From Paragorgia papillata (taxonomy: Eukaryota > Cnidaria > Anthozoa > Scleralcyonacea > Coralliidae), in the NCBI GenBank assembly GCA_035771165.1, contig JAWNZC010000025.1, positions 2,141,501-2,205,500 on the forward strand: a DNA stretch of 64,000 nt, written 5' to 3'. Numbering within the stretch: the stretch's first letter is position 1; the number at the start of each line of letters is the position of its first letter. Of this stretch, positions 31,354-64,000 are shown piece by piece. The notes under the pieces are model-generated. The model had not been told where the DNA came from and ran no database searches. It saw nothing but the letters and a program-made list of their open reading frames with translations. Position numbers and translations under genes: made by a program.

Positions 31354-31472
31354 ATTTATAGACCTTTCGCTCGGGGAATTCGATGAAATATTACCCCTCG
31401 GGATGATATATCCGTCGGGCTTGGGGTAATATTTCATCGAATTCCCCTCGCTCCAGGCCTAGGTCTATAAAT
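31354..31472. repeat. Foldback element abutting the CDF gene
   Basis: Terminal inverted repeats ATTTATAGACCT and AGGTCTATAAAT flank a long stem. CGGGGAATTCGATGAAATA pairs with TATTTCATCGAATTCCCC around a central CCCCTCGGGATGA loop. The right terminus overlaps the first two bases of the upstream-most ATG of the CDF reading frame. That ATG is therefore partly transposon-derived. Confidence 0.8.
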
Positions 31473-35527: not shown

Positions 35528-35749
35528 TTCAACCGACTTTCGAAAATTGAATTATTGAATATTGACCACGTCGAATGTTTCCAATTTTAATTGCATTCCG
35601 GCTTCGGCACATGATCAACATCTGTATAGCCTGCAATGCAGGTGTTTCCGCCTTGGTCTTGCAAACTATTAATTCATTATTCATGTACTTTCACTGACCT
35701 ATGTGTGTGCAGCAATTTTTAATGCTGCAAATGCCCATTTGAGGTATAA
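35528..35749. other. Upstream region of the SLC49-type gene
   Basis: About 220 bp between the gene's ATG and a MITE. No clear TATA box is seen on the minus strand. The promoter, if here, is short or extends through the MITE. Confidence 0.3.
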
Positions 35750-44600: not shown

Positions 44601-47600
44601 AATATTTTTGAGACAAGGATCAGAAATCTGAAGTCAAAAATAGTTTTATAAGTGATATACCAGTGTATACTGCACATGACATGAAAGCCCTTGGAGGGAC
44701 AATCCGAATGATTTATATTATATTATTTCTGATTGAACATGTCAAGCGCTATACGCGAATACATGTTGAAATCAACACCCACATCTATCGAGGTGGCCAG
44801 GTTGGCTTTGTATAGAAAGCCTTTACAGACGCATAACACTTTCAACAGCAGCCTTCAACTTCAATCAACTTTCATTTTATGTATCAGACAGATCAGAGTA
44901 GACCAACTCACTTTAAGCGTTGGTCAAAGAAAGTAACGACATCCAACAACAAAATGGAGGAACATCCCTGAGAACCACGCCAGAAATGTTTGATTAATGC
45001 TTGATTAAAGGAATTTAAGCAAAAACAAAAAACATACGATTCTAATGTTCATAGAGCAGAAATACATTCTCGTGTCTTCTTAAATCATTTTACAAAAAAA
45101 CTTTATTGGAGCTGAACTTCATCGATTTTAACAGATCTGTCCAAGTATGTCCAAAGACGTTGAAGCATCGGTGAAATTAACAATTAAAACTACTCGCCAA
45201 CATAGTAAGTTTGGTATCATACGAAAGCTAAAGGCCTTATCTGTTTGGATTCCCTTCCAATTTTCATGCCCCAAGTATCTATAATTACCATAAATCACAC
45301 TATATTTATGGCAAACTAGCTAGTGCCCAGGCTCTCAATAGAGAATGCCGTATTGAGAAGGAATTTTGGCTTCAACCTTATGGCGGTAAATCGACGTATG
45401 TTGACCCAGCGTGCTGCAAGGGCTCACAAAGCACATTTCACTGACAACCACAAAATTTCGAACAAATATCAAATTGTAGGAGAGGTTGTAGCCCCTCTGC
45501 CCCTGTCACCATGCACTGAATGCATCATGCACTGATTATACATGCATGTGTTTCAACTTTTGACATTTCAGGGTCTGAGTGCAACCCTCTCTTCACAAAA
45601 GTCAAAGTGCATGGATACCCCACTGTATACATGGATACAACTGAGTTCCAAAACCAACAAACTGCACAGTCCTATAATATTTACCACAGCCACAGCTCCA
45701 CCCGTTAAAATTTCCTGTTCTGACAGTACTGCAAAATAGGCAATGTTCGTCAACAAGTAAATAAATGTCACCAAAGGAATTCCAATTCCAATAGCTCGAG
45801 GAATATTTCTATAAAATATCAAATTAAGATTAATTGACACAAGTTCAACGCAGACAAAAAACACCTACCGTATTTTCTGGGTGATAACCTGCATGGCGTA
45901 TAACCTGCACAGCAACAAAAATATCACTTTGGGAAAAATAAATCGGTGTATTACCAAGCACCATTGGATAACCCGCAGCTGCTAATAGGGACTTTAAGAT
46001 GCTAGGATGACGACGGCGGTTAAAACACAAGATAAGTTTTACAATTTAAAGAAGTCACGGTTAACTGACTATTATATTTGGTATTTGAAGCTAGTTTAAT
46101 GACTTCCAAAACACACCAGTATTGCTAAAATGATTGTAGTGTCCGTATTGAAGTCAATCTCAAGCAACAGTTCACATCTTTTGGCCGTTTACGTCCTCCC
46201 AAAAACGTGAAAATGCTCTAAGTGGCGTTGTATAAAGAACGAGGACGGTGTTGAAATTACTCTTGGGACTAAAACTTATTCATTCTCTTTGTTTTGCAAA
46301 AAGAATTATTTTGTTTAGAGAACATCGTCATTGAGGTTGATCTTAAAGTCCCTATTAATAAGTTTGGGACCACAAAATTTAAAAAAAGTACAGTACTGGG
46401 AGTTGAAAGTAGAATCCTTGGTCTCCGGTCTTCGTGATGGCGTCACCTTAAGAATTCAACAGATTACCCGCACCACCCTATTACCTGCACTATAATTAAG
46501 TTTCCTAGCAAAATCACCCAGAAAATAATTATGGTAATTACATACTCCTATAATTGTATTGCTGAACTGTTAGGACATACTTGTTAGGATCACGAACCTC
46601 TTCTGAAATGTAATTTAGATTATTCCTAAATGAAAGATAAAGTGAATTATAAATTTACACAACCATGACAGTTTTCTATATTTTATTCCATAGTTCACGA
46701 CACAAGAACGTTGTACACAAGTAAAGCTGCATATTACCATCCATCATATGCCCAAAGACCGTTATAAAAAGCAGTGCCAATTAACCCAATTGATTTTGTA
46801 GTACCAGTAAACGAACGTGAAGAATCAAATTCTGTAGTGTAACCTGGCAAAAAAAAGAAAAATGCTAAATTGTGTACCGTATTTTCTGGGCGATAACCCG
46901 CACGGCGTATAACCCGCACAGCAACAAAAATGTCACTTTTGGAAAAATAAATCAGCGTATTACCCGCACCATCGTATAACCCGCAGCTGCTAATAATAGG
47001 TTTGGGCAAGGGAGCATGCCAGACTGACTTGTATTTCTTCTTTGTTCGGTGTTCCTTCATTTATATTCAGCCATTTTGAATAATGCGGTATATTCATAAG
47101 CGTATCGCAGGCGCGGGGCCCCGTAGCCCGCGCCTGCGATACGCTAATGATATATACCGCATTATTCAAAATGGCTGAATATAAATGAAGGAACGCCGAA
47201 CAAAGAAGAAGAAATACAGGTCAGTCTGGCGTGCTCCCTTGGTTTAGGACCACAAAATTATAAAAAAGTACAGTACCAGTAGTTGAAGGATGAAAGTAGA
47301 ATCCTTGGTCTCAGTCTTCGTGATGGCGTCGTCTTAAGAATTCAACAGATTACCCGCACCACCCTATTACCCGCACTAATTATGTTTCCTAGCAAAATTA
47401 ACAGATAACCCACGGGTTATCGCCCAGAAAATACGGTACACTAGTCACTATCCAAGATTAGATGAGGCTCTTACAAAGTTGGGTTACCATCATCTAAATA
47501 ATACTGGCAGATACAAGAAATACGCAATCTCTACCATGCATGAGCTGCAGATATCAAAGAACTTCCTTCATTAACGCTTTGACTATCAGACCCTGTAATG

Positions 47601-50600
47601 TTATGCTGTCTAACAGGAAACAATTAACCTTGTTTAAAGGAAACTGCTAGGAGCTGGATATTACGTTCAAAGTCAACCATTTTAAGCTGAAGTGTTTCAG
47701 TCTCTGTTTACAAAAGCAGACATTGGCTGGAAAAGTGTCTATTGCCTGGGAAAGCACTGATCACCTGTAGAAGCACCCACTTCTGTATAAGCACTGATAT
47801 TACAGATAAATGCCCATTTCATTATTTATGCTCCTATTTTTCTTATTTACATGTCAGTTACCGTTGCAGGTGAGTGGTTAATGCCAGTGTTTACTTGCAT
47901 AGAGAACATTTAATTTTACTTCTGCTAAAAATGTCTATAGTTATATACCTTGACAGAGGCGGACTATTCCAGTAAGGATAATCAAAGCAAGAGCAATAAG
48001 TTTAGCTCCTGTGAAGAATACTTGAACTCGGGTTGCAAACTTCACACTTACACAGTTAATAACAGTGATCACAGCTAAACAGGAAAAACAAGAGAAAATG
48101 TTAAATACCATTGGGAGAGGAGTGACACATTCCAAAATCAACATTTCTTATAGGGAGGAGGATATACGGTATCCCCAATGCACCACCCTGAATGCACCAG
48201 AGACATAATTATTATTCGGGCTACCTGCGAGTCTAAATTTCGGCTCTGTTATTATTATTTTTTGTGTCAACAACTTGACCCGACAGGCTTTGCGAAACCA
48301 AGATTTCACTTTCATGGCGAGTTGTCTCTTGAACGAAGCTTTTCTTGCCATTTTATCAGTTTCATCTCAAACAAAGATGTCAGAGTAGTTGGACTGTCAG
48401 CGAATCAAGGTGTATTAAAAATAATTGGAAACTTTAAACTGAAGGAGTGAAGGATGTCAGAGAACAGGCATGTTTAATAATTGCAAAACTGAGGGTTGGC
48501 TGAGTTGTCTCCAGATGATCAGTGGTTGTCTCTTTTGAACGAAGCTTTTATTGCCATTTTATCGATGTTTTTGAATATTTGAAAGACATTTCACTGTTTC
48601 TCAGTTGTTTACTTGTTATATTTAGATCTGGGTTATATTCTGCCATCCCGATCAAGACAAACTGATTATAAACGATTTATAAACGTTTATATTAAAAAAA
48701 TTATATTATATGCTGTGTTGACATTTCGTGCTGAAGAGACTCAAGTTTAATACACTAAATGGGAAACTTTAAATGTATTGAGGTAAGCTTAATTTTAATG
48801 TAAATTTGCTTTGTTATTGCCTGGATTACGTATTTTTGTGTTAATAGTTCCTGGGTAGCACCAAATAATGCAAAAAATACTGATAAACATGTACTATGTC
48901 GAACTGTTTGCATGTCTAGATTAACGCTGTGATGTTAGCTGCCAGTTCGCCGCTGCACTGTAGCTCGTTCAAGCCAGCTTTTTCACTAACAGCAGGTGAA
49001 CTGGCAGCTAACTTAACGGGGTTGTCTAATGATCGCTTGAATCTACCAAATCTAGCACTGTATATTGCACTGTAGGTTATTTTGTACTTTTTAACAAACA
49101 CGTAATATGTACACGCTGTTTCATGCATAGGCTATGCCAAGCTCCATTGCTATGGGTAGCCCGAGTGAACGACTAAGCAGGCGTCTTGTTAGAAATAAAA
49201 ACAAATAAATCAATTTTATTCCAAGAAGGATTTTGATTTATAACAGGAAAATGTTGTTCAACTTGGTTCCAGAAAAAATTGTATTCTTGGTCACCCAAAA
49301 CAAAACTATGACAGAGCTTGAGAATTTTCTTATACAGACCTTTTAAGTAACTTATACTCGCTTACTGAAACAATGCCATATAATTATAAGCCTGGCAGAG
49401 GTTTCATTATTGTATCATAGCAGGCTACGTTTCAAAAATAGACATCTGTATATATATATATATACAATTATATCTAAAATTACAGTACATGAAAAAATAG
49501 CTGGTGGTAAGAGGCAAAAAGAGTCAAAACAGGCAGCGGTAAACTGCTGGTAACCACCTATTAATGAAACCTCTGCCTGGGAGAGCACCTTCTGGTAGAT
49601 GATGCAGTCCTTACCCAGCAAAAAATTATGAGTCAGTCATCAGCAAAAATACTGAAAAAAACCCCCCCAAATTCAAAGTACCCACAAAAACCCTGGCCCT
49701 TACCTCAATTTGTGCCTTCACAGCATAAGAGAAGGGGCACAAGGGTATTGGTGATATGAGCAAAGTAAAAAGGTGGAAAAACCACCAATATTTTAGCAAC
49801 AAAATACTGATGTTTCAAACAGAGCCATTCATTAGTACCTTTATTGTATTAACTCTGTCCAAAAATTTTTACACATGGAAGAGCGTGATCAGAACTACTC
49901 TGGCTGAAAAGTTATTTAAATTTAAATTTATGTTTAAAGAACTTTTAAGCCAGAGAAGAATTAAACTATGTCTGATTCTTCACCTGGCAGCATTGGGAAT
50001 CTATAAATTTTGTTGAAAACTAGGAAGTGAGATCATAAAATTATATAATTATTGAGTGATCAGATATCTTGGATCTCTGATATCCTGACTTTGCTAGCTT
50101 CGAAAGTGCTCTTTTAATAAAATTTTGAGGAGGCATCATAAAAGCCAATAATGGCAATGAAAGCATTTCATTTTGGACTCTCACCCCCCTCTGACATTAA
50201 TCTCTTTTTGACACTTGTTGTGCCTCTCTTATCAGACTGGGGGCACACCCAGAAATCTGAAGCCACCCAAGTATTTAGTACTGTAGGCTTGTAGCATGCT
50301 CAACCAGAAAAATATCAGAATATATTAAATAAAAGAAGTTTTGTACGAATACCATGACAACTTCATTTGTAGACAGGAATGAAAAGATTATGTTTTATCT
50401 ACATAGCAACCAAACCCAACAATTTGGTCCTTATTACAAACACAAGTATTCTTAGTAATATATTTTAGAGCACAACAGTATTTTGTAGGTTTTATGTTTC
50501 CCCTAAATCATATCTTTATACTTTAATAATGTAGATACAATGTAAGAAATTTCATTTCTGACGACTTACGGTGACTTTCAGCACACTGAAAGTGTTCTTA

Positions 50601-51902
50601 TATTAAAACACAAACTGGAACTGTAGTTTAAGTTATATTTATACAGATACTTTGCAACGTCTCGCCAGAGATAAAATGTTAATACCAGGTCAAAGTATGT
50701 GGGAAGTAAGTTGATTTTATTACTAGTAAAGAGCGATAACTATGTCGTTTGGGATTGACGATCATTTTTTTACGTCTCTAAGGTCTCTAAGGGCAGCCTT
50801 GATAAGATTTAGGGGTGGATATTCATCCACTTATTCAAAAACACGTGAAGGACGCATGGCAGCTCGTTTAATTTCATCATCCTTCACGAGATATTGATAC
50901 AGCAGAGCTTGCTTAAACAAAAACTAAAGGTTTTTTTTTGTCTGCCTACGTTCAAGATATTAGCCAATAAACCTAGTTTAATATTTAAAACCAATTTCAG
51001 GAATGATTCAAACGTTCATGCACTGCTATAATCGAGTCACGCAAATCTATTTCGCCTCAACCATAAATAATAAACAAAAATTATGAAAGATAAACTAGCC
51101 TACTATGCTTTACTTCATAAATCCTAATTCTTAACACTACAAATATTAGTTGAAGGTAAATGATTTTGTTGTAGACAGTGACATGTTTTTTTTGTTTTGT
51201 ACTTTAAATGAATTATGATGTCTTATAAAAGAACCCGATATGGTATTTGGCGCGAAATTACCCCCAACTAATTATAAAGAAGCGACAAAACACATTACAT
51301 ATTACACGACATATTAAACTATTTCGTTACACTTTTACTTGTCATTATAAACATACACTGTAGGTAACCGAAGAGAAACCAGAAATATCAGAGATCTTAC
51401 CTATCGCAAACGCAGCCAATAATTTTATGATCTGTTGAACATCGGAGCGTTCCGTGCAATCAGGAAAGAATGGCGTAACGATGTATTCGCCGAATATGAG
51501 ACATATAATGGCCAGTTGAGAGGGTTTAATAACGATACAGGCAGTCCATGTGTAAAGGAAACCCGGTAGTGCCCCAAAAGATTCACGCATATAGGTGTAC
51601 TCGCCACCAGAAACGGGAATCATCGTACCCAATTCGGCATACGACAAGGCGCCACAAACAGCCAACACGCCACATAAACCCCACACAAACAGAGCCATTC
51701 CAACAGATCCCGATGCTTCGAGGACATATTTCGGTGAAGCGAAAATCCCACTGCCGATCATGGTACCCACAATAACAGCAATACCGCCAATAAGACCAAC
51801 TTCTCGTTTCAGCGAAACACCTTTGTCGCCGCTATCGCTCAACAAATTCTGTGTTGTTGGCGAACTTGGCGGTCGTTCTTCGTTGGGTATAATTTCAGAC
51901 AT
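41690..51902 (-). CDS. SLC7A9-like: SLC7A9-like (b0,+-type) amino-acid transporter light chain, 10 coding exons
   Basis: Complete gene of 503 residues, reconstructed with GT-AG introns and consistent phases. Exons in transcript order: 51902-51401, 48074-47949, 46843-46738, 46625-46581, 45808-45685, 43424-43321, 43113-43017, 42810-42655, 42139-41962, 41763-41690 (1,512 bp with stop). It encodes a 12-TM APC-superfamily exchanger, the light chain of a heteromeric amino-acid transporter. GSGIF (50-54) in TM1 is the substrate-backbone motif. FFPDC places Cys149 where light chains form the disulfide to an SLC3 heavy chain. IKPSQLAII in TM3, [11 protein letters not shown] in TM6 and YCVLFIL-type sequence near the end resemble SLC7A9 more than LAT1. 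The ATG at 51,902 is chosen because it aligns with the ATG of four paralogous exons; an in-frame ATG 16 codons upstream is not conserved. Introns run from 112 bp to 3.3 kb and hold several MITEs. Substrate range (cationic/neutral, cystine) is inferred. Confidence 0.93.
42338..42448. mobile_element. Perfect-hairpin MITE in SLC7 intron 8
   Basis: 111-bp hairpin with ends GACTGCGTTTACACTA and TAGTGTAAACGCAGTC, and inner arms GTATCTGGATTCACATTGTT / AACAATGTGAATCCAGATAC. It is flanked by TTA on both sides (42,335-42,337 and 42,449-42,451), so it is PIF/Harbinger-like. The near-perfect arms suggest a young insertion. Confidence 0.85.
42884..43010. repeat. Microsatellites in SLC7 intron 7
   Basis: A TGTT/TTTG run at about 42,888-42,908 and a TA run at about 42,984-43,005, within 30 bp of the splice donor at 43,016-43,015. 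Both are simple repeats. Confidence 0.8.
44187..44370. mobile_element. Foldback MITE in SLC7 intron 5
   Basis: 184-bp inverted repeat with ends ATAGACCTTATTCAAAAATG and CATTTTTGAATAAGGTCTAT, plus inner arms around TAAATTAGCCCTTATGA / TCATAAGGGCTAATTTA. It is non-coding. The rest of this 2.26-kb intron (43,425-45,684) shows no exon or other gene. Confidence 0.8.
45866..46533. mobile_element. Non-autonomous element in SLC7 intron 4 (TACCGTATTTTCTGGG family, copy 1)
   Basis: The left end TACCGTATTTTCTGGGTGAT and inverted right end ATCACCCAGAAAATAATTATGG enclose about 670 bp with internal words CGTATAACCTGCAC and ATTACCCGCACCACCC. It almost fills the intron between exons 4 and 5. Its left edge lies about 58 bp from the acceptor of exon 5 and its right edge about 47 bp from the donor of exon 4. 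Confidence 0.7.
46873..47440. mobile_element. Non-autonomous element in SLC7 intron 2 (same family, copy 2)
   Basis: About 568 bp with inverted ends TGTACCGTATTTTCTGGGCG and CGCCCAGAAAATACGGTACA and the same internal words as the copy in intron 4 (CGGCGTATAACCCGCAC). A second palindrome (47,009-47,241) is nested in its middle. The left edge lies only about 30 bp from the acceptor of exon 3. Confidence 0.8.
47009..47241. repeat. Long near-perfect palindrome nested in the intron-2 element
   Basis: Arms of about 105 bp run from GGGAGCATGCCAGACTGAC to GTCAGTCTGGCGTGCTCCC. They pass through ATTCAGCCATTTTGAATAAT and the GC-rich centre CGCAGGCGCGGGGCCCCG. The arms differ at only a few positions. 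Such a structure would form a strong hairpin in RNA. Confidence 0.85.
48075..51400 (-). other. SLC7 intron 1 (3.3 kb)
   Basis: This intron separates the variable first exon from constant exon 2. It holds a duplicated segment with GAACGAAGCTTTT near 48,334 and 48,539, an inverted pair GTTAGCTGCCAGTTC / GAACTGGCAGCTAAC (48,931-49,014) and an inverted pair AGGTTTCATTATTG / TATTAATGAAACCT (49,398-49,570) with a TA run inside. The remainder to 51,400 is AT-rich with short frames (up to 90 codons) and no recognisable product. Confidence 0.6.
51401..51902 (-). CDS. SLC7 variable first exon, copy 1 (proximal)
   Basis: 502-bp coding exon giving 167 residues plus one base, with donor GATAG/GTAAGATC. 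It encodes the N-terminal tail, TM1 with GSGIF, TM2, TM3 with IKPSQLAII, and the start of TM4, including Cys149. Joining to exon 2 restores the family sequence across the junction (AAFAIG then [12 protein letters not shown], with an alanine codon split by the intron). Its tail is eight residues longer than in the other copies (LLSDSGDKG region) and it is the most divergent, so it is probably the founder. It is also part of the full gene entry. Confidence 0.93.
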
Positions 51903-52028
51903 CTTTTTTAAGAACCAGAAGAAATAAGTATTCACGAAGCAGATGTACACAGAGTATACGAGTATACCTGCACTGTAGTAAAAATACGACTACACGAAGA
52001 TCTGCCAGCTGGTTGGTACACGTGTGTT

Positions 52029-52036
52029 CTTTTATA
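52029..52036 (-). promoter_or_regulatory. Candidate TATA box for SLC7 copy 1
   Basis: On the minus strand the sequence reads TATAAAAG about 130 bp upstream of the ATG at 51,902. That would put transcription start near 52,000 and give a 5' UTR of about 100 bp. Only position and consensus support it. Confidence 0.4.
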
Positions 52037-53390
52037 ATCTCGAATGGCTTTGTCGGGAGCTGAAAGATATTTATATTTTTGTTTTCGTTAGCCAATCAGA
52101 GACCAGGAAGAAGACAGTGGTCGGCATTTGCCGCCGTTTCGCGGTTTATCTCATGACCTGAATACGACAACAAAGCCTCCTTTTGCTTTCCTTTCAATAA
52201 ACATAAAACTTTAATATTCTGAAGTGACACATGAACTCGTTGTAAATAAGTGTTGTGAACTTGCGAAGTTTACAGTTTATGGGCTTGTGTTCATATTGTT
52301 CAAAGCACGTGCATGTGACGTGTACGCCACGGAAGTACAAAGTTCAGAGATTTGAAAGACATCAGCCACATGAGGCGTAACAGGCGGTGAACAGAGGGGG
52401 GAGGGGAATTGCCCATATTTGAAAAAGAAAAATTTTAGGAATTTCGGACAATTTTGACATGTCTTGCTGTGAAATGTTGAAGAAAAATTCATGAAGATTG
52501 AAAAATACGACGACTTAAAAATCAATATTTAACCCTAAATTTTTCGGGCAAAAATTCTGCCCCCCCCCCCTCCAAACAGAATTAATATTGGCTGCTACGC
52601 TCGGCTACGCCTATGCGCGCGGTTTTAATGCGGAGTAAGAAATAGATGAAATATAGATTTCTATTTTGATCTGTTGTTCTAGTCTAGAAACATCTGAAAA
52701 GTTCATAGTAAATAAAACATTTTATTATATAGATGCGAGTGTTTTACTAGAGAATATACAGTGTCGTATTTTCCATATCCTCACTAGTGAAGATATCGAT
52801 GACGTCATTAAGAATTTTACCCCTTTTTGCATTGAATCTATATAATAAAATAAAAGAAAATTACACGCTGGCTTGAAGATATGAATTTTATCTTCTCGTG
52901 GTAAAAACGATATTTTACTCATTCGCTACGCTCATTCGTAAAATATTGTTTTCACCACTCGAAGATAAAATCCATATCTTCGCACCACCGTGTAATATCC
53001 TCTATATACGCCCACATACGTCAGGAAGCCCATAAAGTTTACCCACTTAACAAAAGAGGTTGAAGGTAATTTAAATATGATACACGGAACTATTTTCCTT
53101 ACCGAAGTAATAATTTTCAGAGCTCTGCCAAGTTTTTGAACGACACGGCCATGTCCATGCACTAATCCGCGGAGACCTCGTATCGAAAACGTATCAAAAG
53201 CTTTCCACACTATCGTTTCCGAATCGTTTTCGCCGTTTAGTAAAACGCTAAAAAGATCTACAGGGGTATGAATGAATAGTTCTAGGTGACTGAAACCAAG
53301 TTCAAAAACTCATTAATAATTCATGAGGAAAACACAAAGGAAATCAGTACCATGTCCGTGGTTTTATACCTGATAAAACTTGACGTCAGA
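52037..53390. other. Repeat-rich intergenic segment upstream of SLC7 copy 1
   Basis: No gene is seen. 52,380-52,620 is an inverted relative of sequences at 57,340-57,540 and 59,850-60,060 (shared words include AACCCTAAATTTTTCG and CATGTCAAAATTG in opposite orientation). 52,720-53,000 has inverted TTATTATATAGAT / ATCTATATAATAA and GAAGATATG...CATATCTTC words. 53,150-53,290 (AAACGCTAAAAAGATCTACA) matches 57,560-57,625. Confidence 0.5.
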
Positions 53391-53502
53391 AAGAATACTA
53401 ATGAACATACAATTTTATATAAAGAATACTAATGAACATACAATTTTATATAAAGAATACTAATGAACATACAATTTTATATAAAGAATACTAATGAACA
53501 TA
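53391..53502. repeat. 31-bp minisatellite, 3.6 copies
   Basis: Exact tandem repeats start at 53,391, 53,422, 53,453 and 53,484 (unit begins AAGAATACTAATGAACATAC and ends TTTTATATA); the last is partial. It is non-coding and unrelated to the large satellite. Confidence 0.95.
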
Positions 53503-53524
53503 ACATCCAATAACGAATCATCTC

Positions 53525-53612
53525 GCATCACGTGTTTTATCAGATCTAAAACACTCGGGCTGCGCCCTCGTCGTTTTAAATCCGATAAAACACTCCTGCT
53601 CGTGTTTTAAAT
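53525..53612. repeat. Short foldback
   Basis: CACGTGTTTTATCAGAT and ATCCGATAAAACACTCC-type arms enclose a GC-rich centre (GGGCTGCGCCC), with a further GTGTTTTA word at the right. Similar in style to the other foldbacks here. Confidence 0.5.
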
Positions 53613-54454
53613 ATTACATAACATAATCGTGACATCGTTTTCCAAAAGCTTCGTTTTTGCTGTCCACACTGGTGGAGAAAAACGACGTCTTCGAATGTCT
53701 CCACTCTGCAGAGCGTTTTCGAAAAGCTCCGTTCTCGGCACCGAATTAGTGTGGACGAAAGGTCTAACCGATCAAAAAGTCTCCGTTTAGTTTTTTAATG
53801 CGCATGCTCAGATACTCTTGGTCCGCCATCTTCCTAGCCAAATAAGCCTTTTAGTTTCTTATTTAGGTTTTTTCACCCCTTGTCTATGGGTCGTTTTCAC
53901 ATACGAGATATTAAAGAATAGAGCTTATTCGATCACTATAGATCGTTTTCATCTGACGTCACGGCGGCCATATTGGTGTACCATCTGCGAAAATGTGTGC
54001 GAAAATACCGAAGTCAAATACTTTCAAGTTCAGACCAAACAAACGAGTCAATAATAAGCCATTTATTATATGGCTTTAAATTTTGTTTTAACTCACCGTT
54101 CGCGTTTCCGGATGTTGCTGTTTACCTTATTTTTGAGTTTGTTTGTTAGTCATTATATTGTCTAACCCATATTACCATACACTGTACTCCTAGCTATATT
54201 ATTTAACTCACATTACTATACCCTTTACACTTTTAACCATAGTTTGTATGGTATTATCTAGTTCATGTTACGTTCTGTACTTTTATGTAAATATATTTTC
54301 ATATGTGCCTGTATTGATATTTGATGAATAAAGTATTATTATTATCACTGTTTACACGTGTGTTAGTTAATTAAAATAGTTAAGCATTTATTTTCTAAAT
54401 AAGTAGTTTTTATACGAAGAAACACTCATGTTCCAGAGCGTATTATTGTTCAAA

Positions 54455-54615
54455 TAATAATCAATTATTGGACGAGTCTGAGCAAAATATCATGATTTGT
54501 CAGTGGCGAGCTACTAGTTATTTGCCGATGCCGAAGGCAGAGGCAAATAACTGGTAGCGAGACACTGACAAATCATGATATTTTGCGATAGACGAGTTCA
54601 ATAATTGATTTATCA
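54455..54615. repeat. Foldback element
   Basis: About 160 bp with arms CAATTATTGGACGAGTC / GACGAGTTCAATAATTG, AAAATATCATGATTTGTCAG / CTGACAAATCATGATATTTT and AGTTATTTGCC / GGCAAATAACT. It is non-coding. Flanking sequence from 53,613 to 54,454 and from 54,616 to 55,000 shows no gene. Confidence 0.8.
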
Positions 54616-55129
54616 TTCATAAAATAGTTAAAAATCTGAAATGCCTGAAGTTAGAGATCGCCACTCTCCTCTGTGTCTTCGGCATACTAAAATCTTCGTA
54701 AAACTTACTTTTTGTTGGCACGAGTGTTGCTTTTTATCTCACTAAATCTTCCTTTTAACTATTTCTTTTCTAAAGTACATTGTCGTTATGAATGCTTCCA
54801 AATACTCTCGATTATTTCCTCGGATAGCTCAGAACTAGCCGCCATGTTTACGAAAATTATTTGCAGTCAGCAGCGCCATTGCTAATGCGCATGCTCATAA
54901 CATTATTTGCAGCAAAAAAATTATTTGCACTCAGTTATTTGCAGGTGAATTAACCAATCAGAATGCAGGATAGAAAGGAAATGAATGATAATAGTAATTA
55001 TTTATCTCTAAATATCTAATTCTCTCTAGCTTATTTTCAATTCAAATCAATTCCGAAATTTTCCCGCCAAAACCTTTTCGGACCTCTCAGCAACCAATCA
55101 CCGTGTGCCATTTGGCGTGATGCCTCATC

Positions 55130-56050
55130 AGATCATAGTCAATCGAGATATTGTCTGGAAACTCAGCTAAAGTCTTCGGGTATCTTTTTGTTCGCCTTTA
55201 TGCATTTTTGTGCACGGTGTACGGTCACTGAACACATTGTATTTTAATATAATGAACGAGTTGTCCAATAGCAACGTTTCAGTTCAATCACTCAACCGTG
55301 CTATTTAAATATTAATAAACCTAAAACAAAGGATGTGCACGGTGTAAGGTACGGTTCAACATAAAATCACAGCTCATTATAGGCGCTTTGACGTTTGCCG
55401 AGTTTCCAGACCATATCTTGATTGACTATGATCAGATTTTACGTATAGACATAATCAAAGCGCCTATAATGAGCTGTGATTTTATGTTCAACCGTACCTT
55501 AAGCCCCGCACAGACGACCAAGTTTTTCTTGACAAGTTCCTTGGTAACTTTCCTTGCTCGTGTGTATGATGAACACGTTTTTTTCAAACAATTTTCCTTG
55601 ACAAGTTATAATTGCTCGTGTGTACGGTTGGACAAGTTTTCCTTGACAGTAATGATCGCGTGATAAGCTTCGGAGATGAGTTGTCAAGTTTTCCTTGACG
55701 ACTATACACACGAACAAATTTCCTTGTTCAAAAGCTGGCATGACCAGCTTTTGAACAAGGCTCCTTGTCAAGGAAAAACTTGTCAATTTGTGTCGTGCAC
55801 ACGAACAAATAAAACTTGTCAAGGAAAAACTTGTCAAGGAAAACTTGGTCGTCTGTGCGGGGCTTTACACCGTGCACATCCTTTATTTTAGGTTTATTAA
55901 TATTTAAATAGCACGGTTGAGTGATTGAACTGAAACGTTGCTATTGGACAATTCGTTCATTATATTAAAATACAATGTGTTCAGTGACCGTAGCTACACC
56001 GTGCACAAAAATGCATAAAGGCGAACAGAATGATAATCTTGATTGACTAC
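55130..56050. repeat. Long palindromic repeat interrupted by a MITE
   Basis: Left-arm words CACGGTGTAAGGTACGG, AACCGTGCTATTTAAATATT and AATGAACGAGTTGTCCAATAG return in reverse complement to the right of 55,865. The centre is near 55,430 (GGCGCTTTGACG ... CAAAGCGCC). Block B carries essentially one arm only. This is probably a transposon remnant. Confidence 0.7.
55502..55864. mobile_element. MITE, Harbinger-like, with proven empty site
   Basis: 363-bp element with ends AGCCCCGCACAGACGACC and GGTCGTCTGTGCGGGGCT. It is flanked by TTA at 55,499-55,501 and 55,865-55,867. The interior is made of CTTGACAAG/CTTGTCAAG words. The paralogous sequence at about 57,890 reads ACCTTACACCGTG without the element or the second TTA, which is the expected empty site. 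Confidence 0.92.
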
Positions 56051-56302
56051 GACATAATATACTCCCTATGGTTTATAGTTCGCACCCTAAAACTATGCTC
56101 CATGCAGAGCCAATCTCTTGTATTGATATTTTCCAAGAAACATAATAGACATAAACATTAATATCGCATTTGGCACGTAAATTGCCCAACTAATACAGTA
56201 AAGTGGCGAGAAACACGACATAAACAGTTTCCGTTTAGATTTTTTCTTGTCACTATAGACGTAGATAACCAGATATACCATGTATAACCAAAGAGACCTT
56301 AC

Positions 56303-56780
56303 CTATCGCGAAGGCAGCCAACAATTTTATGATCCGTTGAACATCGGAGCGTCCCGTGCAATCAGGAAAGAATGGCGTAACGATGTATTCGCCGAATATG
56401 AGACATATAATGGCCAGTTGAGAGGGTTTAATAACGACACAGGCAGTCCATATGTAAAGGAAAGCCGGTAGTGGTCCATAGGCTTCACGCATATAGGTGT
56501 ACTCGCCACCAGAAGCGGGAATCATCGTTCCTAATTCGGCATAGGACAAGGCACCACAAACAGCCAACAGGCCACATAAACCCCACACAAACAGAGCCAT
56601 TCCAACAGATCCCGATGCTTCGAGGACATATTTCGGAGAAGCGAAAATCCCACTGCCTATCATACACCCAACAATGATAGAAACCCCGCCAAGAAGACCA
56701 ACTTCTCTTTTCAACGAAACACCTTTCTGCGACTTTGGCGAACTCGCTGGTCGTTCTTGGAGCGCTGTGTGTTCAGACAT
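56303..56780 (-). CDS. SLC7 variable first exon, copy 2
   Basis: 478-bp open exon giving 159 residues plus one base, with the same phase-1 donor (GATAG/GTAAGG) as copy 1. It keeps GSGIFASP, the paired glycines of [16 protein letters not shown] in TM3 and the FFPDC cysteine. No exon resembling SLC7 exons 2-10 is visible between this copy and copy 1. It is therefore either an alternative first exon of the downstream gene or a partial duplicate. The frame is undamaged. The 5' flank is shared with copy 3. Confidence 0.85.
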
Positions 56781-57110
56781 CTTGTAATGACAGGAAATCT
56801 CTCTCTTCACGTATACGACATTAGAATGTCAAGAATGTAATTTAAACATCGGATTTGTGTATAAAAGAGAGGCTAGAGATAAAGCAGGTTTCAACTTTTT
56901 TGCATGCAACTAAACTGCGCCAAAAAACGCAACAGTACAAAATCAGCCTTCATTATCCTGTTGCTAAACCACAAAGGAATGTAGTAGCTACGAGAAGAAC
57001 ATCTTTAGTCTCAGAATACTACAGTAAAAATCCGCGTGTTTCTAGAAACACTATTTTCTCAACGAGGTTATTCAATGACCAGGGCACTGCGCGCGAAAAT
57101 ATGGGAAGAA

Positions 57111-57250
57111 CCCACTGACCTGTATATAAGAACAGGTCTGCCGTCAGTGGAAAAACCCAGCGCATTCGTCAGTTTTTAGATGGCGTGTTTCGTCTTTTCG
57201 TTTTGCGTGGTGATGAGTAATTTTAATAAATTTCTATTTTTGAGGTAAGC
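57111..57250 (+). promoter_or_regulatory. Candidate divergent promoter and small first exon (block A)
   Basis: TATATAAG at 57,123-57,130 sits in a palindrome (CCACTGACCTGT ... ACAGGT ... CAGTGG). 57 bp from the start of the TATA motif an ATG (57,180) opens a hydrophobic peptide starting MACFVFSFCVVMS, ending at a good splice donor (TTTGAG/GTAAGC, 57,244/57,245). It points away from the SLC7 exon. The whole arrangement recurs in block B. No downstream exon was recognised, so this is tentative. Confidence 0.3.
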
Positions 57251-57909
57251 ACCATGTATTTAATTTTCTATGCTGAGCTTTTGTCTTGTGAGCTCTAATG
57301 AAGTTCTGAGCTCACAGGCACTCACAGGCATAGAGGCGTAGCAGCCCAATTCTGTTTGGGGCAGAGATTTTTGCACGAAAAATTTAGGGTTAAATATTGA
57401 TTTTTAAGTCGTATTTTTCAGTCTTAGCTTAATAACGTATGAATTTTTCTTGAACATTTTACAGCAAACATGTCAAAATTGCCCGAAATTTCTAGCAGAA
57501 AATGCCTGAATTTTCCTTTTTCAAACATTTTCGGAAATTCCGTCCACGTCGTTTTCGATAATCGTTTCGCCGTTTAGTAAAACGCTAAAAAGATATACAG
57601 GGGTATGAATGAATAGTTCTAGGGCATATTATTATTGTTCAAATAATACTAATTCTTTATCTCTAAATGTCTAATTCTCTCTAAATAATATTTTTAATTC
57701 AAATCAATTCCGAAATTTTCCCGCCAAAACCTTTTCGGACCTCTCAGCAACCAATCACCGTGTGCCATTTGGCGTGATGCCTCATCAGATTTTACGTATA
57801 GACATAATCATAGTCAATCGAGATATGGTCTGGAAACTCGGCAAACGTCAAAGCGCCTATAATGAGCTGTGATTTTATGTTGAACCGTACCTTACACCGT
57901 GCACATCCT

Positions 57910-58411
57910 CAGTGGCGTAGCCAATGGGGGGGGGGGCGAGGGGGGCGACCGCCCCCCCCCAATGGTCTTCCAGGCCATTCCTGTGAAAAGTTTAAATCCG
58001 GGGAGAAACTTGTTGAGGGGGGGGGGGGGGGGGTAATGATGTTACGTAGTGAAGCCTTCAAGGGAGAAGCAAGTTGACTCGTAATGATATTACTATATAT
58101 TACTGTTTTATTTTCTATGGAAAATATAGCATTACAAGGTCCACATACATACGACTTATCATAAATAATTCTCAATAAATTTTGATATGTGTACTACATT
58201 GTTTTGGTTTGGAGACAACAAAACTTTGCTATTTATGGCGATCAGTTATTTTTTTAAATCTCGCCTCAGAATGCGGGAAATGCAGTCTGAGAGATTCTAG
58301 AATTCAAAAAATTTCCGAGGGAGCATACCCCCGGACCCCCCTAGGAGGGTCGCGTCTTCGACGCTCGACCAATTTCGCTCCCCCAAAGACAGAACCCTGG
58401 CTACGCCACTG
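57910..58411. mobile_element. Non-autonomous hAT-like element with 8-bp target duplication
   Basis: 502-bp element with inverted ends CAGTGGCGTAGCCA and TGGCTACGCCACTG. CACATCCT is duplicated exactly at 57,902-57,909 and 58,412-58,419. The 8-bp duplication and CAGTGGCG-type terminus fit hAT transposons. Homopolymer G/C runs lie inside. The paralogous site near 55,875 (CCGTGCACATCCTTT) is uninterrupted. Confidence 0.92.
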
Positions 58412-58839
58412 CACATCCTTTGTTTTATGTTTATTAATATTTAAATATAGCACGGTTCAGTGATTGAACTGAAAGTTCAAAGTTCAAACGTTGCTATTCA
58501 GGACAATTCGTTCATTATATTAAAATACAATGTGTTCAGTGACCGTAGACCGTGCACAAAAATGCATAAAGGCGGAAAAAAAGATAGACCAAAGACTTTA
58601 GCTGAGTTTTCAGACCATATCTCGATTGACTATGGCATAATATACTCCCTATGGTTTCATTGTTCGCACCCTAAAACTATATGCTCCATGCAGAGCCAAT
58701 CTCGTGTATTGATATTTTCCAAGAAACATAATAGACATTAAACAGTTTCCGTTTACACTCTTTCTTGTCACTATAGACGTAGATAACTAGATATACATGT
58801 ATAACCAAAGAGAAAACAGAGCTAGGAAAAAGATCTTAC

Positions 58840-59317
58840 CTATCACGAAGGCAGCCAACAATTTTATGATCTGTTGAACATCGGAGCGTCCCGTGCAATC
58901 AGGAAAGAATGGCGTAACGATGTATTCGCCGAATACGAGGCATATAATGGCCACTCCAGAGGGTTTAATAACGACACAGGCAGTCCATATGTAAAGGAAA
59001 GCCGGTAGTGGTCCATAGGCTTCACGCATATAGGTGTACTCGCCACCAGAAGCGGGAATCATCGTTCCTAATTCGGCATAGGACAAGGCACCACAAACAG
59101 CCAACAGGCCACATAAACCCCACACAAACAGAGCCATTCCAACAGATCCCGATGCTTCGAGGACATATTTCGGAGAAGCGAAAATCCCACTGCCTATCAT
59201 AGACCCAACAATGATAGAAACCCCGCCAAGAAGACCAACTTCTCTTTTCAACGAAACACCTTTCTGCGAGGTTGGCGAACTCGCTGGTCGTTCTTCGTGC
59301 GCTGTGTGTTCAGACAT
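58840..59317 (-). CDS. SLC7 variable first exon, copy 3
   Basis: 478-bp open exon, 159 residues plus one base, donor GATAG/GTAAGATC. It differs from copy 2 at about nine residues. Two adjacent changes are in TM3 (IKPSGVAII for IKPSQLAII), one is in TM1 (VGSMIG for VGCMIG) and one is just before the donor (AAFVIG). The GSGIF motif and FFPDC cysteine are kept. No reading-frame damage is seen. As for copy 2, constant exons are absent nearby. Confidence 0.85.
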
Positions 59318-59629
59318 CTTGTAATGACAGGAAATCTCTCTCACGTATGTCAAGAATTTAATTTAAACGTCGGATTTGTGTAGGCTAGAGATAAAACAGG
59401 TTTCAACTTTTTGCATGTACAACTAACCTGCGCCAAAAAACGCAACAGTACAAAATCAGCCTTCATTATCCTGTTGCTAAACCACAAAGGAATGTAGTAG
59501 CTACGAGAAGAACATCTTTAGTCTCAGAATACTACAGTAAAAATCCGCGTGTTTCTAGAAACACTATTTTCTCAACGAGGTTATTCAATGACCAGGGAAC
59601 TGCGCGCGAAAATATGGGAAGAACCCACT

Positions 59630-59770
59630 GACCTGTATATAAGAACAGGTCTGCCGTCAGTGGAAAAACCCAGCGCATTGGTCAGTTTTTAGATGGCGTG
59701 TTTCGTCTTTTCGTTTTGCGTGGTGATGAGTAATTTTAATAAATTTCTATTTTTGAGGTAAGCACCATGT
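59630..59770 (+). promoter_or_regulatory. Candidate divergent promoter and small first exon (block B)
   Basis: Duplicate of the arrangement at 57,111-57,250. TATATAAG at about 59,636-59,643 lies inside the same palindrome, followed by ATGGCGTGTTTCGTC at 59,693 and the donor GAG/GTAAGC near 59,758. Sequence is nearly unchanged between blocks. That may reflect recent duplication rather than selection. Confidence 0.3.
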
Positions 59771-60060
59771 ATTTAATTTTCTATGCTGAGCTTTTGTCTT
59801 GTGAGCTCTAATGAAGTTCTGAGCTCACAGGCACTCACAGGCATAGAGGCGTAGCAGCCCAATTCTGTTTGGGGCAGAGATTTTTGCCTGAAAAATTTAG
59901 GGTTAAATATTGATTTTTAAGTCGTATTTTTCAGTCTTAGCTTAATAACGTATGAATTTTTCTTGAACATTTTACAGCAAACATGTCAAAATTGCCTGAA
60001 ATTCCTAGCAGAAAGCGCCCGAATTTTCCTTTTTCACACATTTTGGGAGGACAATTGCCC

Positions 60061-60651
60061 CAGGGCGAAAGCGCAGCATAAAAAATTAAAACTGATGGAA
60101 CACTTCTAATATGTCAGCCTTTTCCGTTTCACTTAGGAAGTGGCTAGGGACATAACCGCATTTTCGAGAAATCATTGCCAGTTCTCTGAAAAGTGCTCAG
60201 GTGAAAACTGTACAGCTCTCAGCCAATCAAAATTCATGCACGTTATTAAAATGGTAATTTAATAGCACTTGAATTATACAGTGACATGCAGGCAACAAAG
60301 AAGACATTTAATCTAATTTTATTTCTATACATTTAATTTTACCCGTACTCTTCCCTACATGCTTAACTTTAATACAACATCGGATTTGTTGTATTAAAGT
60401 TAAGCATATATGGTTTCATCGTTCGCACTTTGCCCCATGCAGAGCCAATCTCTTGTATTGATAATTAATTTTCAAGAAACATAATAGACATAAATATTAA
60501 TATCGCATTTGGCGCGAAAATTGCCCAACCAATTAGTAAAGTGGAAAGCAGCAAACGAGAAACACAACATAAACAGTTTCCGTTTAGACTTTTTCTTGTC
60601 ACTATAGACGTAGATAACTAGATATACCATGTATAACCAAAGAGACCTTAC
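60061..60651. other. Intron-side flank of first-exon copy 4
   Basis: No gene is seen. A short perfect palindrome lies at about 60,362-60,404 (TTAACTTTAATACAACA then TGTTGTATTAAAGTTAA). From about 60,270 the sequence matches that at 63,290-63,740 (ACATGCAGGCAACAAAGAAG, TTGTATTGATAATTA, CAATTAGTAAAGTGG), so intron flank was copied together with the exon. Confidence 0.6.
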
Positions 60652-61129
60652 CTATCGCGAAGGCAGCCAACAATTTTATGATCTGTTGAACATCGGAGCG
60701 TCCCGTGCAATCAGGAAAGAATGGCGTAACGATGTATTCGCCGAATATGAGACATACAATGGCCATTCCAGAGGGTTTAATAACGACACTGTCAGTCCAT
60801 ATGTAAAGGAAAGCCGGTAGTGGTCCATAGGCTTCACGTATATAGGTGTACTCGCCACCACAAGCGGGAATCATCGTTCCTAATTCGGCATAGGACAAGG
60901 AACCACAAACAGCCAACACGCCACATAAACTCCACACAAACAGAGCCATTCCAACAGATCCCGATGCTTCGAGGACATATTTCGGAGAAGCGAAAATCCC
61001 ACTGCCGATCATACACCCAACAATGATAGAAACCCCGCCAAGAAGACCAACTTCTCTTTTCAACGAAACACCTTTCTGCGAGGTTGGCGAACTCGCTAGT
61101 CGTTCTTCAAGCGCTGTGTGTTCAGACAT
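60652..61129 (-). CDS. SLC7 variable first exon, copy 4
   Basis: 478-bp open exon, 159 residues plus one base, donor GATAG/GTAAGG. Distinctive residues are IKPSGMAIV in TM3, ACGGEYTYIR for [16 protein letters not shown] for VWGLCG, and WTDSVVIK for WTACVVIK. GSGIF and the FFPDC cysteine are kept. Five bases upstream of the ATG the sequence departs from the other copies and a transposon-like element begins. Its 5' UTR and promoter have therefore been replaced. Confidence 0.82.
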
Positions 61130-61137
61130 CTTGTCCC

Positions 61138-62765
61138 CTAGCCTGCGAGCAGGCTCTTGGGTAGGAGCGGGAGGTGACTATTTGTCAGGCCCAGGGCGCC
61201 CTGGTCAGGCCTTTATTTGTTCCCGCCTTCCGCTAAACCCGGCAGCGCGGGCAGAGGTGCGGGCGAGCGAGAAGGCGAGAAAATGGTTATAAATCCATGT
61301 CCTATATATATTTACGAATTTATTGGTTAGGATTAGGGTGTGTGTTGGAGTCAGGCTTTCATGAAGTACCTGGGTTATTTAGGACATGGAATTATTACCA
61401 GAAAAATAAAGGCCTGAGGAAACTCTTAACAAAACTGTCTTCCGCCCACTTTGCTATTTTTAAACATGAACGAGTATGATTGATATGATCATGAGTTGTC
61501 AAAAGAACAAAGCGTATGTTTTGATTTCATCCCACATGGACGGAGTCCCCACAGTTTTGTTAAGAGTTTCCTCAGGCCTTTATTTTTCTCGCCTTCTCGC
61601 TCGCCCGCACCTCTGCCCGCGCTGCCGGGTTTAGCGGGAGGCGGGAACAAATAAAGGCCTGACATTCAGGTTAGAGGTGACATAGCTATTTTGAATGCCG
61701 CCCCTTCTAACGGGTTGTCAAAAGCGACCAATCACAAACCAGACACGCAATGTAAACAAAGAAAACGGTTTTACTTCCTCGCCAGACTGATACGCCAATG
61801 AAATATTATTTGGAACAGTGGTTCGCACATTTTGGACAGTATAACAAGTTTTATAAAACGCAGAATCTTGAACTCTACATCAAATGAAAGCTCATTCAAC
61901 ATATAACAACATACGTACACAATATATTTCAACGATGCGTAGTTCTGAAATTACTAGTCATCTTGTTCCACAAATGACAAGATAATGATTAGCCTGAGAA
62001 AACATAGATAATGATATGCCGTATAGCCGTCGTGCCACTTCGGTACGTCCTGTCTGACTTTTTCCTATCTATATATATTTTCACATATCGAGTGGAAGAA
62101 CTGAAAAGAAGGAGCCGGAGTCTTTCAGACTTTAACTTTGCCTGGCCATAGGAACTTCAGTCATATAAATAATAATTAAGTTGGAATTAATATAAAAAAT
62201 ATTCTGTGGTATCCCGCGAGCTTTATAACAAATCATTTGATTGCTATTCAAAACTGTTGAATTTGGTAAATCCTGGGTCTAGCCAATCTCGTTCCCAGAG
62301 CCCACGTTCCCCACCTGGGAAACGAGAGACTCTGGGATAATCCGTTTCACATCGATATTTCATTGGCTGATGAACACAGTGAACTCTATATATAAACTCT
62401 TCTTCCGGATAACAAGAATCCTGTGATGGCGCGAACGGATTATCCCAGAGTCCTAATATGATTTTAATACGGTTTGTACAACCCTTGATAAATTATCAAA
62501 AATATTAAAAATATTTACCTGATGGAAATATCTTTCAGACACAAATGCACTTAATATTTTACAAATTACCAGCAGTCTATTAATATATGGTTGTGCGTCA
62601 ACAATCAGCATCTCGTCCAATCAGTGAGCTGCGTCCCAATTTGGAACGCTACTACCACAGAATAAAGAACTGAGCTACTACTCAAAAAACATACTGCGCG
62701 TGCAGGTTCTCCTTCTCCTCCTCTCTCTCCCCAATCCCCCAAAGGAGAGCCAGCTCGCAGGCTAG
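61138..62765. mobile_element. Composite element with CTAGCCTGCGAGC ends
   Basis: Inverted ends CTAGCCTGCGAGC and GCTCGCAGGCTAG lie 1.6 kb apart. An internal inverted pair (about 61,200-61,285 against 61,585-61,665) includes GGCGGGAACAAATAAAGGCC and GCGGGCAGAGGTGCGGGCG. A third pair, ACTCTGGGATAATCCGTTT / AACGGATTATCCCAGAGT, lies at about 62,327-62,453. No protein is recognised. It begins nine bases from the ATG of first-exon copy 4. Confidence 0.65.
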
Positions 62766-63746
62766 TACAGATTGTAGCCATATTTTTTGGGCACCTCAGT
62801 TTGGGCGCCCAAACCAGTGTACCGACGTCTCAAACCCCCTCGATACGGCCCTGCGAACAACTGCATTGAGCCAAAACAAACTTACTCAATACTGTAACTA
62901 CTAAAAAAAATATAAGATAAATTTAAACAAAATAACAGTTATTATAATACAGTTTATCGTTTAAGAGATATTGAGACCATCCCACATGTTTACTTTTTAA
63001 AATAATAAACTATTAACATTCAACTTTGGTTTTGAAAAGTGATGCAATTTTTTTCTTGCTCAAACTTGATGTAGGATATTTTTTTCTCTTTGTGGTTCAA
63101 TGCATGCCTTTTCCCCCCGTCCCAAACCACCTTGCAGGATTTTTTTTTCTGAAATCACCCCCCCCCCCCCCCCCCCCCTCAAATGTCAAATGGTCGGCCC
63201 ATAAGGAGAGGCTACGTTCGGAGGTAACCACGTCAGTTATTTACCAAGGGCGGGTTCGGTAACTAAACTATACTTAAAAAAACAAAACTTGAATTATACA
63301 ATGACATGCGGGCAACAAAGAAGACATTCAATCTAATTTTATTTGTTTCAATTAAAAGTTTCATTTAATCTAACACATTTAATTTTACCCGTATTCTTCC
63401 CTATTAATTAATCATGTTGTATTAAACTTAAGCATAGGGAAGAGTACGGGTAAATACTATACTCCCTATGGTTTCATCCGTCGCACCCTAAAACCTTGCC
63501 CCATGCAGAGCCAATCTCTTGTATTGTCTATTTTATAATGATAATTTTCAAGAAACATAATAGACATAAACATTAATATCGCATTTGGCCCGTAAATTGC
63601 CCAACCAATTAGTAAAGTGGAAAGCAGCAAACGAGAAACACGACATAAACAGTTTCCGTTTACACTCTTTCTTGTCACTATAGACGTAGATAACTAGATA
63701 TACATGTATAACCAAAGAGAAAACAGAGCTAGGAAAAAAACCTTAC
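62766..63746. other. Intergenic / intron-side flank of first-exon copy 5
   Basis: About 63,050-63,205 is a partial relative of the AGGGACGGACCAT element (CTTGCAGGATTTTTTTTTC, a long C run at 63,158-63,178, then TCAAATGGTC). From about 63,290 the sequence matches the flank of copy 4. A perfect inverted pair around GTATTCTTCCCTA / TAGGGAAGAGTAC lies near 63,391-63,450. No gene is seen. Confidence 0.5.
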
Positions 63747-64000
63747 CTATCGCGGAGGCAGCCAATAATTTTATGATCTTTTGAACATCGGAGCGACCCG
63801 TGCAACCAGGAAAGAATGGCGTAACGATGTATTCGCCGAATATGAGACATATAATGGCCACTTGAGAGGGTTTAATAACAATACAGGCAGTCCATGTGTA
63901 AAGGAAAACCCGGTAGTGGTCCATAGGCTTCACGCATATAGGTATATTCCCCACCAGAAAAGGGAATCATCGTTCCTAATTCGGCATAGGACAAGGCACC
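63747..64000 (-). pseudogene. SLC7 first exon, copy 5 (partial, frameshifted)
   Basis: The 3' half of a fifth first exon, cut by the window edge, with an intact donor (GATAG/GTAAGG). TM3 reads IKPSQVAII and the cysteine (FFPGC) is kept. One extra A within AAAGGAAAACCCGG (about 63,901-63,914), compared with AAAGGAAACCCGG in copy 1, shifts the frame between the SGGEYTY region and TM3. Nearby CAGAAAAGGG also differs from CAGAAGCGGG in other copies. It is either a decayed copy or an assembly error in a homopolymer. Confidence 0.75.

Follow-up and report, generated by a model that had tools for sequence, protein, structure and literature searches.

Putative variable first exons in an SLC7A9-like amino-acid transporter gene of the octocoral Paragorgia papillata

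Organization of the locus

The 64,000-nucleotide stretch of Paragorgia papillata DNA analyzed here (contig JAWNZC010000025.1, positions 2,141,501 to 2,205,500; hereafter the window) carries an amino-acid transporter gene, termed gene A, whose first coding exon is present in five copies upstream of a single set of downstream exons. Gene A comprises 10 coding exons on the minus strand, running from 51,902 to 41,690, with GT/AG present at each intron and a joined frame of 503 residues uninterrupted by a stop. The five copies of exon 1 (c1 to c5) also lie on the minus strand, with donors at 51,401, 56,303, 58,840, 60,652 and 63,747, and all of them end ATAG/GTAAG in phase 1. The reading frames of c1 to c4 are open, those of c2 to c4 from their own ATG to the phase-1 donor; c5 is frameshifted and crosses the window edge, its ATG lying at about 64,228 (window coordinates, from the neighbouring stretch). 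TM denotes a transmembrane helix.

51401..51902, minus strand: exon 1, copy 1 (c1), first coding exon of gene A, from the N-terminus to about the start of TM4, with a phase-1 donor
56303..56780, minus strand: exon-1 copy 2 (c2), open, 159 codons plus 1 nt
58840..59317, minus strand: exon-1 copy 3 (c3), open
60652..61129, minus strand: exon-1 copy 4 (c4), open; 5' flank unlike that of c2, c3 and c5 until about 5 nt before the ATG
63747..64000, minus strand: exon-1 copy 5 (c5), part within the window; extends to about 64,228; frameshifted
47949..48074, minus strand: exon 2, first constant exon, acceptor TTTAG/CTGTG at 48,074
46738..46843, minus strand: exon 3, constant; holds the residue aligned with Asp233 of human b0,+AT
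46581..46625, minus strand: exon 4, constant
45685..45808, minus strand: exon 5, constant
43321..43424, minus strand: exon 6, constant
43017..43113, minus strand: exon 7, constant
42655..42810, minus strand: exon 8, constant
41962..42139, minus strand: exon 9, constant
41690..41763, minus strand: exon 10, constant, with TGA at its end

No match to exons 2–10 was found between the exon-1 copies (51–64 kb; tblastn, E 1e-3), and gene A has a single set of these exons even when the sequence is extended beyond the window by 50 kb on the left and 100 kb on the right. This agrees with a preliminary description of the locus, which had reported five same-strand copies with a common phase-1 donor, four of them open, no exons 2–10 among them, and an exon-2 acceptor at 48,074 that fits the donors; exon 1 joined to exons 2–10 indeed gives the one 503-residue frame.

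Across 478 aligned nucleotides the 10 pairs of exon copies are 88.1–97.5% identical. Searches of the 618-Mb, 473-contig assembly, which returned best candidates only (13 were scored for exon 1), listed eight matches to exon 1 of gene A, seven at the locus and one distant (C241, 31% identity). The seven are copies 1–4, copy 5 in two pieces, and a second gene of the family adjoining the window (gene B, below). For the constant part 18 matches were listed, 15 at genes A and B and three distant (21–24% identity). The high identity of the pairs, together with the placement of almost all exon-1 matches at the locus, excludes a chance origin of the copies.

Haplotype or repeat mis-assembly might also have multiplied an exon, and some inter-copy stretches are 95–99% identical. 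Nevertheless, spacing, flanks and private substitutions differ between copies, the constant exons are not duplicated, unlike in a mis-joined haplotype, and c1 and c2 are separated by about 0.2 synonymous substitutions per synonymous site (Ks), and we regard such an artefact as very improbable. No second haplotype copy for allele comparison was found elsewhere among the eight exon-1 matches listed.

The protein and its variable part

The gene A protein contains the Pfam domain AA_permease_2, and its best match among solved structures is b0,+AT (E 6.7e-143); the best protein match of the query is from the octocoral Dendronephthya gigantea (77% identity). By these similarities gene A clearly belongs to the SLC7A9/b0,+AT light-chain family. 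Aligned with human b0,+AT, exon 1 takes in the first three helices, including the unwound loop of TM1, as well as the cysteine of extracellular loop 2 (EL2), and presumably ends at about the start of TM4. Cys149 of the window protein aligns with human Cys144, which we take to be the bonded cysteine, and a cysteine is found here in all five copies. The variable part therefore corresponds to what had been proposed for it, namely TM1 to TM3 and the heavy-chain cysteine.

At residue 47, immediately ahead of the conserved TM1 loop, c1 has T, c3 has S and the other three copies have C; T occupies this position in 127 of 162 relatives. Of 16 rows inspected for the EL2 cysteine, Hydractinia isoform X6 (P0032) is the one without it, suggesting that exon choice could decide heavy-chain pairing. 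A disulfide between EL2 and the linker of b0,+AT is described, and Asp233 tied to cationic substrates, in PMC9110406. The Asp233 equivalent sits, by alignment, in constant exon 3. Given the content that alignment assigns to exon 1, its exchange would be expected to alter TM1, TM3 and the heavy-chain contact and to keep the side-chain pocket.

Isoforms of the same gene in other cnidarians

The window protein and 198 relatives, the union of the best 120 rows from each of three protein searches, were all compared with one another, giving 19,701 pairs. Those sought had constant parts at least 95% identical over at least 200 residues and an exon-1 part at least 12 points more different. Constant parts were this similar in 65 pairs, and in 12 the exon-1 part differed strongly (10 cnidarian pairs and 2 from starfish); the remaining 53 (36 mosquito, 7 mammal and 10 others) showed no such difference.

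Identity of the exon-1 part was 57% between Actinia X1 and X4, 55–66% in three Nematostella pairs, 67% in Pocillopora, 51% between Rhopilema X4 and X6, and 44–47% in three Hydractinia pairs among X2, X5 and X6, with constant parts in these named cnidarian pairs 99.7–100% identical over 332–335 residues. The rows of each named set lie on same-sized contigs, except Nematostella P0013 (another assembly), and neither Pocillopora row has an isoform name. A further pair, labelled jgi, had an exon-1 part of 44% and a constant part of 97.6% identity, and stands near Rhopilema in the constant-part tree; its proteins, of 531 and 519 residues, are on 2.4- and 2.1-kb contigs, and P0020 lacks the initial Met. 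Judged by their length, the jgi (and 'lgn') contigs look like spliced transcripts. In 10 of 10 cnidarian pairs the change point corresponds to window residue 165–167, and exon 1 of the window ends after residue 167.

An Acropora pair is among the 53 without such an exon-1 difference. Clytia P0087 and P0122, which have 100% identical constant parts and different N-termini, were not counted, since most of the exon-1 part is missing from P0122. No public octocoral isoform with a copy-2-like exon was present in the best 120 rows, where clustering at 90% identity could hide one. Taken together, the isoforms and models of Actinia, Nematostella, Pocillopora, Rhopilema and Hydractinia support, at the level of sequence, a switchable exon-1 layout in this gene.

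Constant parts group by species in the tree. Exon-1 parts behave differently: in a 39-row exon-1 tree the grouping of same-species variants as a clade was rejected in six of six approximately unbiased (AU) tests (p ≤0.0086), with p of 0.003 for Actinia, 0.0024 for Nematostella, 0.0021 for Pocillopora, 5e-66 for Hydractinia, 0.0086 for Rhopilema and 0.0019 for the jgi pair, the sets having been chosen by species and including some long-branched rows. This non-monophyly indicates that the variants are old. In the same tree Pocillopora b joins a Nematostella variant (95/83) and Hydractinia X2 joins Hydra (100/97). A 44-row tree that included the N-termini leaves the first of these groupings unresolved and unites Actinia X1, Pocillopora a and Acropora (97/87), on which the 39-row tree is open. 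Octocoral exon-1 parts (copies 1–4, gene B, Dendronephthya and P0002) form one clade (100/99). The array of the window has therefore arisen by the recent expansion, within octocorals, of a single type of variant, in a gene that has several old types elsewhere among cnidarians.

Origin of the copies and the neighbouring gene

Because the exon-1 copies include the donor and flanking intron-1 sequence, they are DNA duplications, and an origin as retrocopies or processed pseudogenes is ruled out by the same intron flank. Most of the homology between c2 and c3 falls between about 1.2 kb upstream and 0.4 kb downstream of the donor, and short pieces reach about 1.3 kb. Comparison of c1 with c2 gives 89.5% identity in the exon against 67.7% in the first 160 nt of the intron, a contrast in favour of the variable-first-exon reading discussed below. 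A 5' flank common to c2, c3 and c5 is a candidate promoter and leader:

56781..57115, minus strand: c2 5' flank, candidate promoter/leader, 95.7% identical to that of c3 (305 aligned nt) and 86.6% to that of c5 (298 aligned nt)
59318..59650, minus strand: c3 5' flank, the same candidate promoter/leader as in c2

A TATA-like box, TATAAAAG, lies about 130 nt upstream of the c1 ATG, such words being anecdotal evidence of a promoter. The flank shared by c2 and c3 also holds a palindrome, GTGTTTCTAGAAACAC (57036-57051 and 59549-59564), which resembles what we take to be the core of a heat-shock element. Just upstream of c4 there is a pair of 80-bp inverted repeats (61204-61283 and 61584-61663; 99% complementary), perhaps a short transposon linked to the loss of the shared 5' flank.

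Gene B, the second tandem gene of the family, lies just to the right of the window on the minus strand. Its exon 1 is at 77,222-76,728 and matches to exons 2–10 run from about 75,206 to 67,826 (window coordinates; tblastn matches). In the order of transcription gene B comes first, followed by copies 5 to 1 and then by exons 2–10 of gene A, and the family acceptor downstream of copies 2–5 is consequently the one at exon 2 of gene A. To the right of 64,000, where the preliminary description had recommended a search for more copies, the rest of c5 and exon 1 of gene B are found, and the exon-1 matches listed include none further. That description had also named complete additional SLC7 genes as telling against its reading; gene B does adjoin the window, although it possesses an exon 1 of its own and leaves the array unexplained.

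Gene B, whose end lies 3.6 kb past the start of c5, raises the alternative that the copies are remnants of whole-gene duplicates, that is, of gene B-like genes that lost exons 2–10. The failure of tblastn to find these exons between 51 and 64 kb and the limited span of homology around c2 and c3 speak against this. Genes A and B share 74% identity in exon 1, below the identity of copies 2–4, and copies 2–5 are closer to c1 than to exon 1 of gene B by similarity, the tree agreeing for copies 2–4; on these two grounds gene B was rejected as their source. The whole-gene alternative seems to us very improbable, no less so than an assembly error.

Selection on the copies

Substitutions were counted by the Nei-Gojobori method from codon 28. 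Between c1 and the other four copies the ratio of nonsynonymous to synonymous divergence (Ka/Ks, or dN/dS) is 0.24–0.43 at Ks of about 0.2. The comparison of dN/dS among copies had been proposed at the outset; among c2–c4 the ratio is not below 1. As dN/dS alone was indecisive, amino-acid changes were also scored on a profile of the relatives' exon-1 parts and compared with random nonsynonymous mutations.

With c1-like states set aside, c2–c4 show 13 distinct changes, whose summed cost is 18.4 bits where 56.0 ± 10.7 would be expected (p 0.0006), and p was about 0.0001 or less when the test was repeated with three other row sets. By copy, p was 0.27–0.55 for c2 (one informative change), 0.005–0.02 for c3 and 0.001–0.002 for c4; the frameshifted c5 gave 0.11–0.32. 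With c1-like states retained the values were 0.20 for c2, 0.02 for c3, 0.0004 for c4 and 0.05 for c5, and a first form of the test, with another ancestor and c1-like states counted, gave 0.054 for c2, 0.040 for c3 and 0.006 for c4. Such mildness suggests, indirectly, that c2–c4 have been read as protein.

Interpretation

We lean toward the view that the locus is a variable-first-exon gene in which TM1 to TM3 and the heavy-chain cysteine are swapped onto a constant TM4 to TM12. Each exon-1 copy would represent a complete start, with an ATG, a cytosolic N-terminus, TM1–TM3, a cysteine-bearing extracellular loop and a phase-1 donor. A putative promoter before every working copy would give rise to a transcript whose donor joins exon 2, one from copy 2 or 3 passing over the copies below it. 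The product would retain the side-chain pocket of the constant part (the Asp233 equivalent, TM6) and vary in TM1, TM3 and heavy-chain contact, and copy 5, perhaps also copy 4, would be decaying members of a birth-and-death process. For copies 2–4 we infer promoter activity, splicing to exon 2 and function.

Several observations weigh against this view. Pairs among c2, c3 and c4 have Ks of 0.01–0.02 with 7–12 nonsynonymous against 1–2 synonymous changes each, a proportion that does not differ from neutrality by a hand binomial estimate; these counts fit neutral change and argue against strong purifying selection after the duplication. The profile signal is carried by c3 and c4, not c2. Since c5 reaches p 0.05 with c1-like states, it is a soft control and its contrast with copies 2–4 one of degree. 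Scoring the changes of c2–c4 by BLOSUM62 gave a weak result (p 0.053), and c4 has a substitution at a serine that is almost invariant, being present in 157 of 162 rows, and lacks the common 5' flank beyond about 5 nt before its ATG. Elsewhere, Porites isoforms X1 and X2 (sister group) share their exon-1 part, and no second octocoral exon-1 variant was found for Dendronephthya P0001 or P0002 in the best 120 rows, where 90%-identity clustering would mask any pair as similar as c1 and c2. The single clade formed by the octocoral exon-1 parts sampled implies that the array was not inherited directly from the old variants that other cnidarians carry.

The principal alternative is repeated partial duplication without function, in which unequal exchange copied the 5' flank, exon 1 and some of intron 1, and copies 2–5 are silent, one of them broken so far. 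In its favour, copies 2–4 are young and their nonsynonymous changes equal or exceed what neutrality would give, and the frameshift of c5, the different 5' flank of c4 and the inverted repeats among the copies fit it as well. It is less easily reconciled with changes in c2–c4 that are milder than random, with the retention there of open frames, donors and phase, or with the annotation of exon-1-exchanged isoforms of the same gene in five other cnidarians. We consider it possible, though rather doubtful.

The variable-first-exon reading, first put forward in the preliminary description, is upheld in part, through its layout, its single constant set and the isoforms of five species that switch at the same boundary, and qualified in that copy 5 is broken, c4 is without the shared 5' flank and purifying selection among copies 2–4 is not seen. 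A broader proposition would be that the cnidarian b0,+AT-type gene has been of this kind since before the split of sea anemones and stony corals, and within Hydrozoa, yielding light chains that differ in substrate handling or heavy-chain pairing, and that in the octocoral of the window new duplications are now renewing the array, of which copies 2 and 3, at the least, would be used; we hold the chances of this to be evenly poised.

Other features of the window

A minisatellite of about 29 kb (71-29340), with units of 39, 51 and 117 bp and the consensus AATAACCATCGCCAAATAACAAGGTGAAAATAACCACCG, leaves long meaningless open frames. Two transporter frames follow it: a cation-efflux family (zinc-transporter-like) frame of 422 amino acids at 31471-32739 on the plus strand, with Cation_efflux and ZT_dimer domains, and an MFS_1 frame of 466 amino acids without a stop at 34151-35551 on the minus strand.

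Comparison with known systems

The best-known clusters of variable first exons belong to cell-adhesion and detoxification genes of vertebrates. The layout described here looks like a little-noticed route to several transporters from one gene, with the split falling inside the membrane core, between the helices that grip the backbone of the substrate and those that recognize its side chain. If the reading is true, the locus would offer a naturally occurring set of domain swaps with which to ask what determines substrate and partner choice in the cystinuria transporter family. It would also be a new way for animals that take up dissolved or symbiont-derived amino acids to diversify their transporters. 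The variant exons are seemingly older than the species that host them, raising the question of how they stay distinct from one another beside a single constant part. A literature search found no published report of variable first exons in this transporter gene; the cnidarian isoforms are already in public annotation and apparently unremarked in the literature, as far as it was searched.

SLC7A9/b0,+AT elsewhere differs in that no variable exon-1 part was seen in the 7 mammal and 36 mosquito pairs compared. Isoforms of starfish b0,+AT-like proteins (Patiria P0067/P0129; two Asterias species, P0059/P0062), with the change point at 168 in both pairs, suggest mutually exclusive TM3 cassettes whose end coincides with the exon-1/exon-2 boundary. 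In Patiria the difference lies just upstream of that boundary, and the N-terminus, TM1 and TM2 are common to both isoforms, only the TM3 part differing, unlike in a first-exon switch.

UGT1 is described as a tandem series of large first coding exons of equal frame upstream of one constant set, subject to birth-and-death with pseudo-exons, and the clustered protocadherins alpha and gamma as many variable first exons joined to three constant exons, in PMC1885805, which terms the organizations it studied vertebrate-specific. Gene A resembles UGT1 in its tandem, like-framed first exons, its one constant set and its turnover of pseudo-exons; the protein is different, and UGT1 exons have distinct promoters whereas those of gene A are putative. 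Compared with the clustered protocadherins, the array of gene A has few copies and belongs to a multi-pass transporter, whose membrane core is itself divided between the variable and the constant part.

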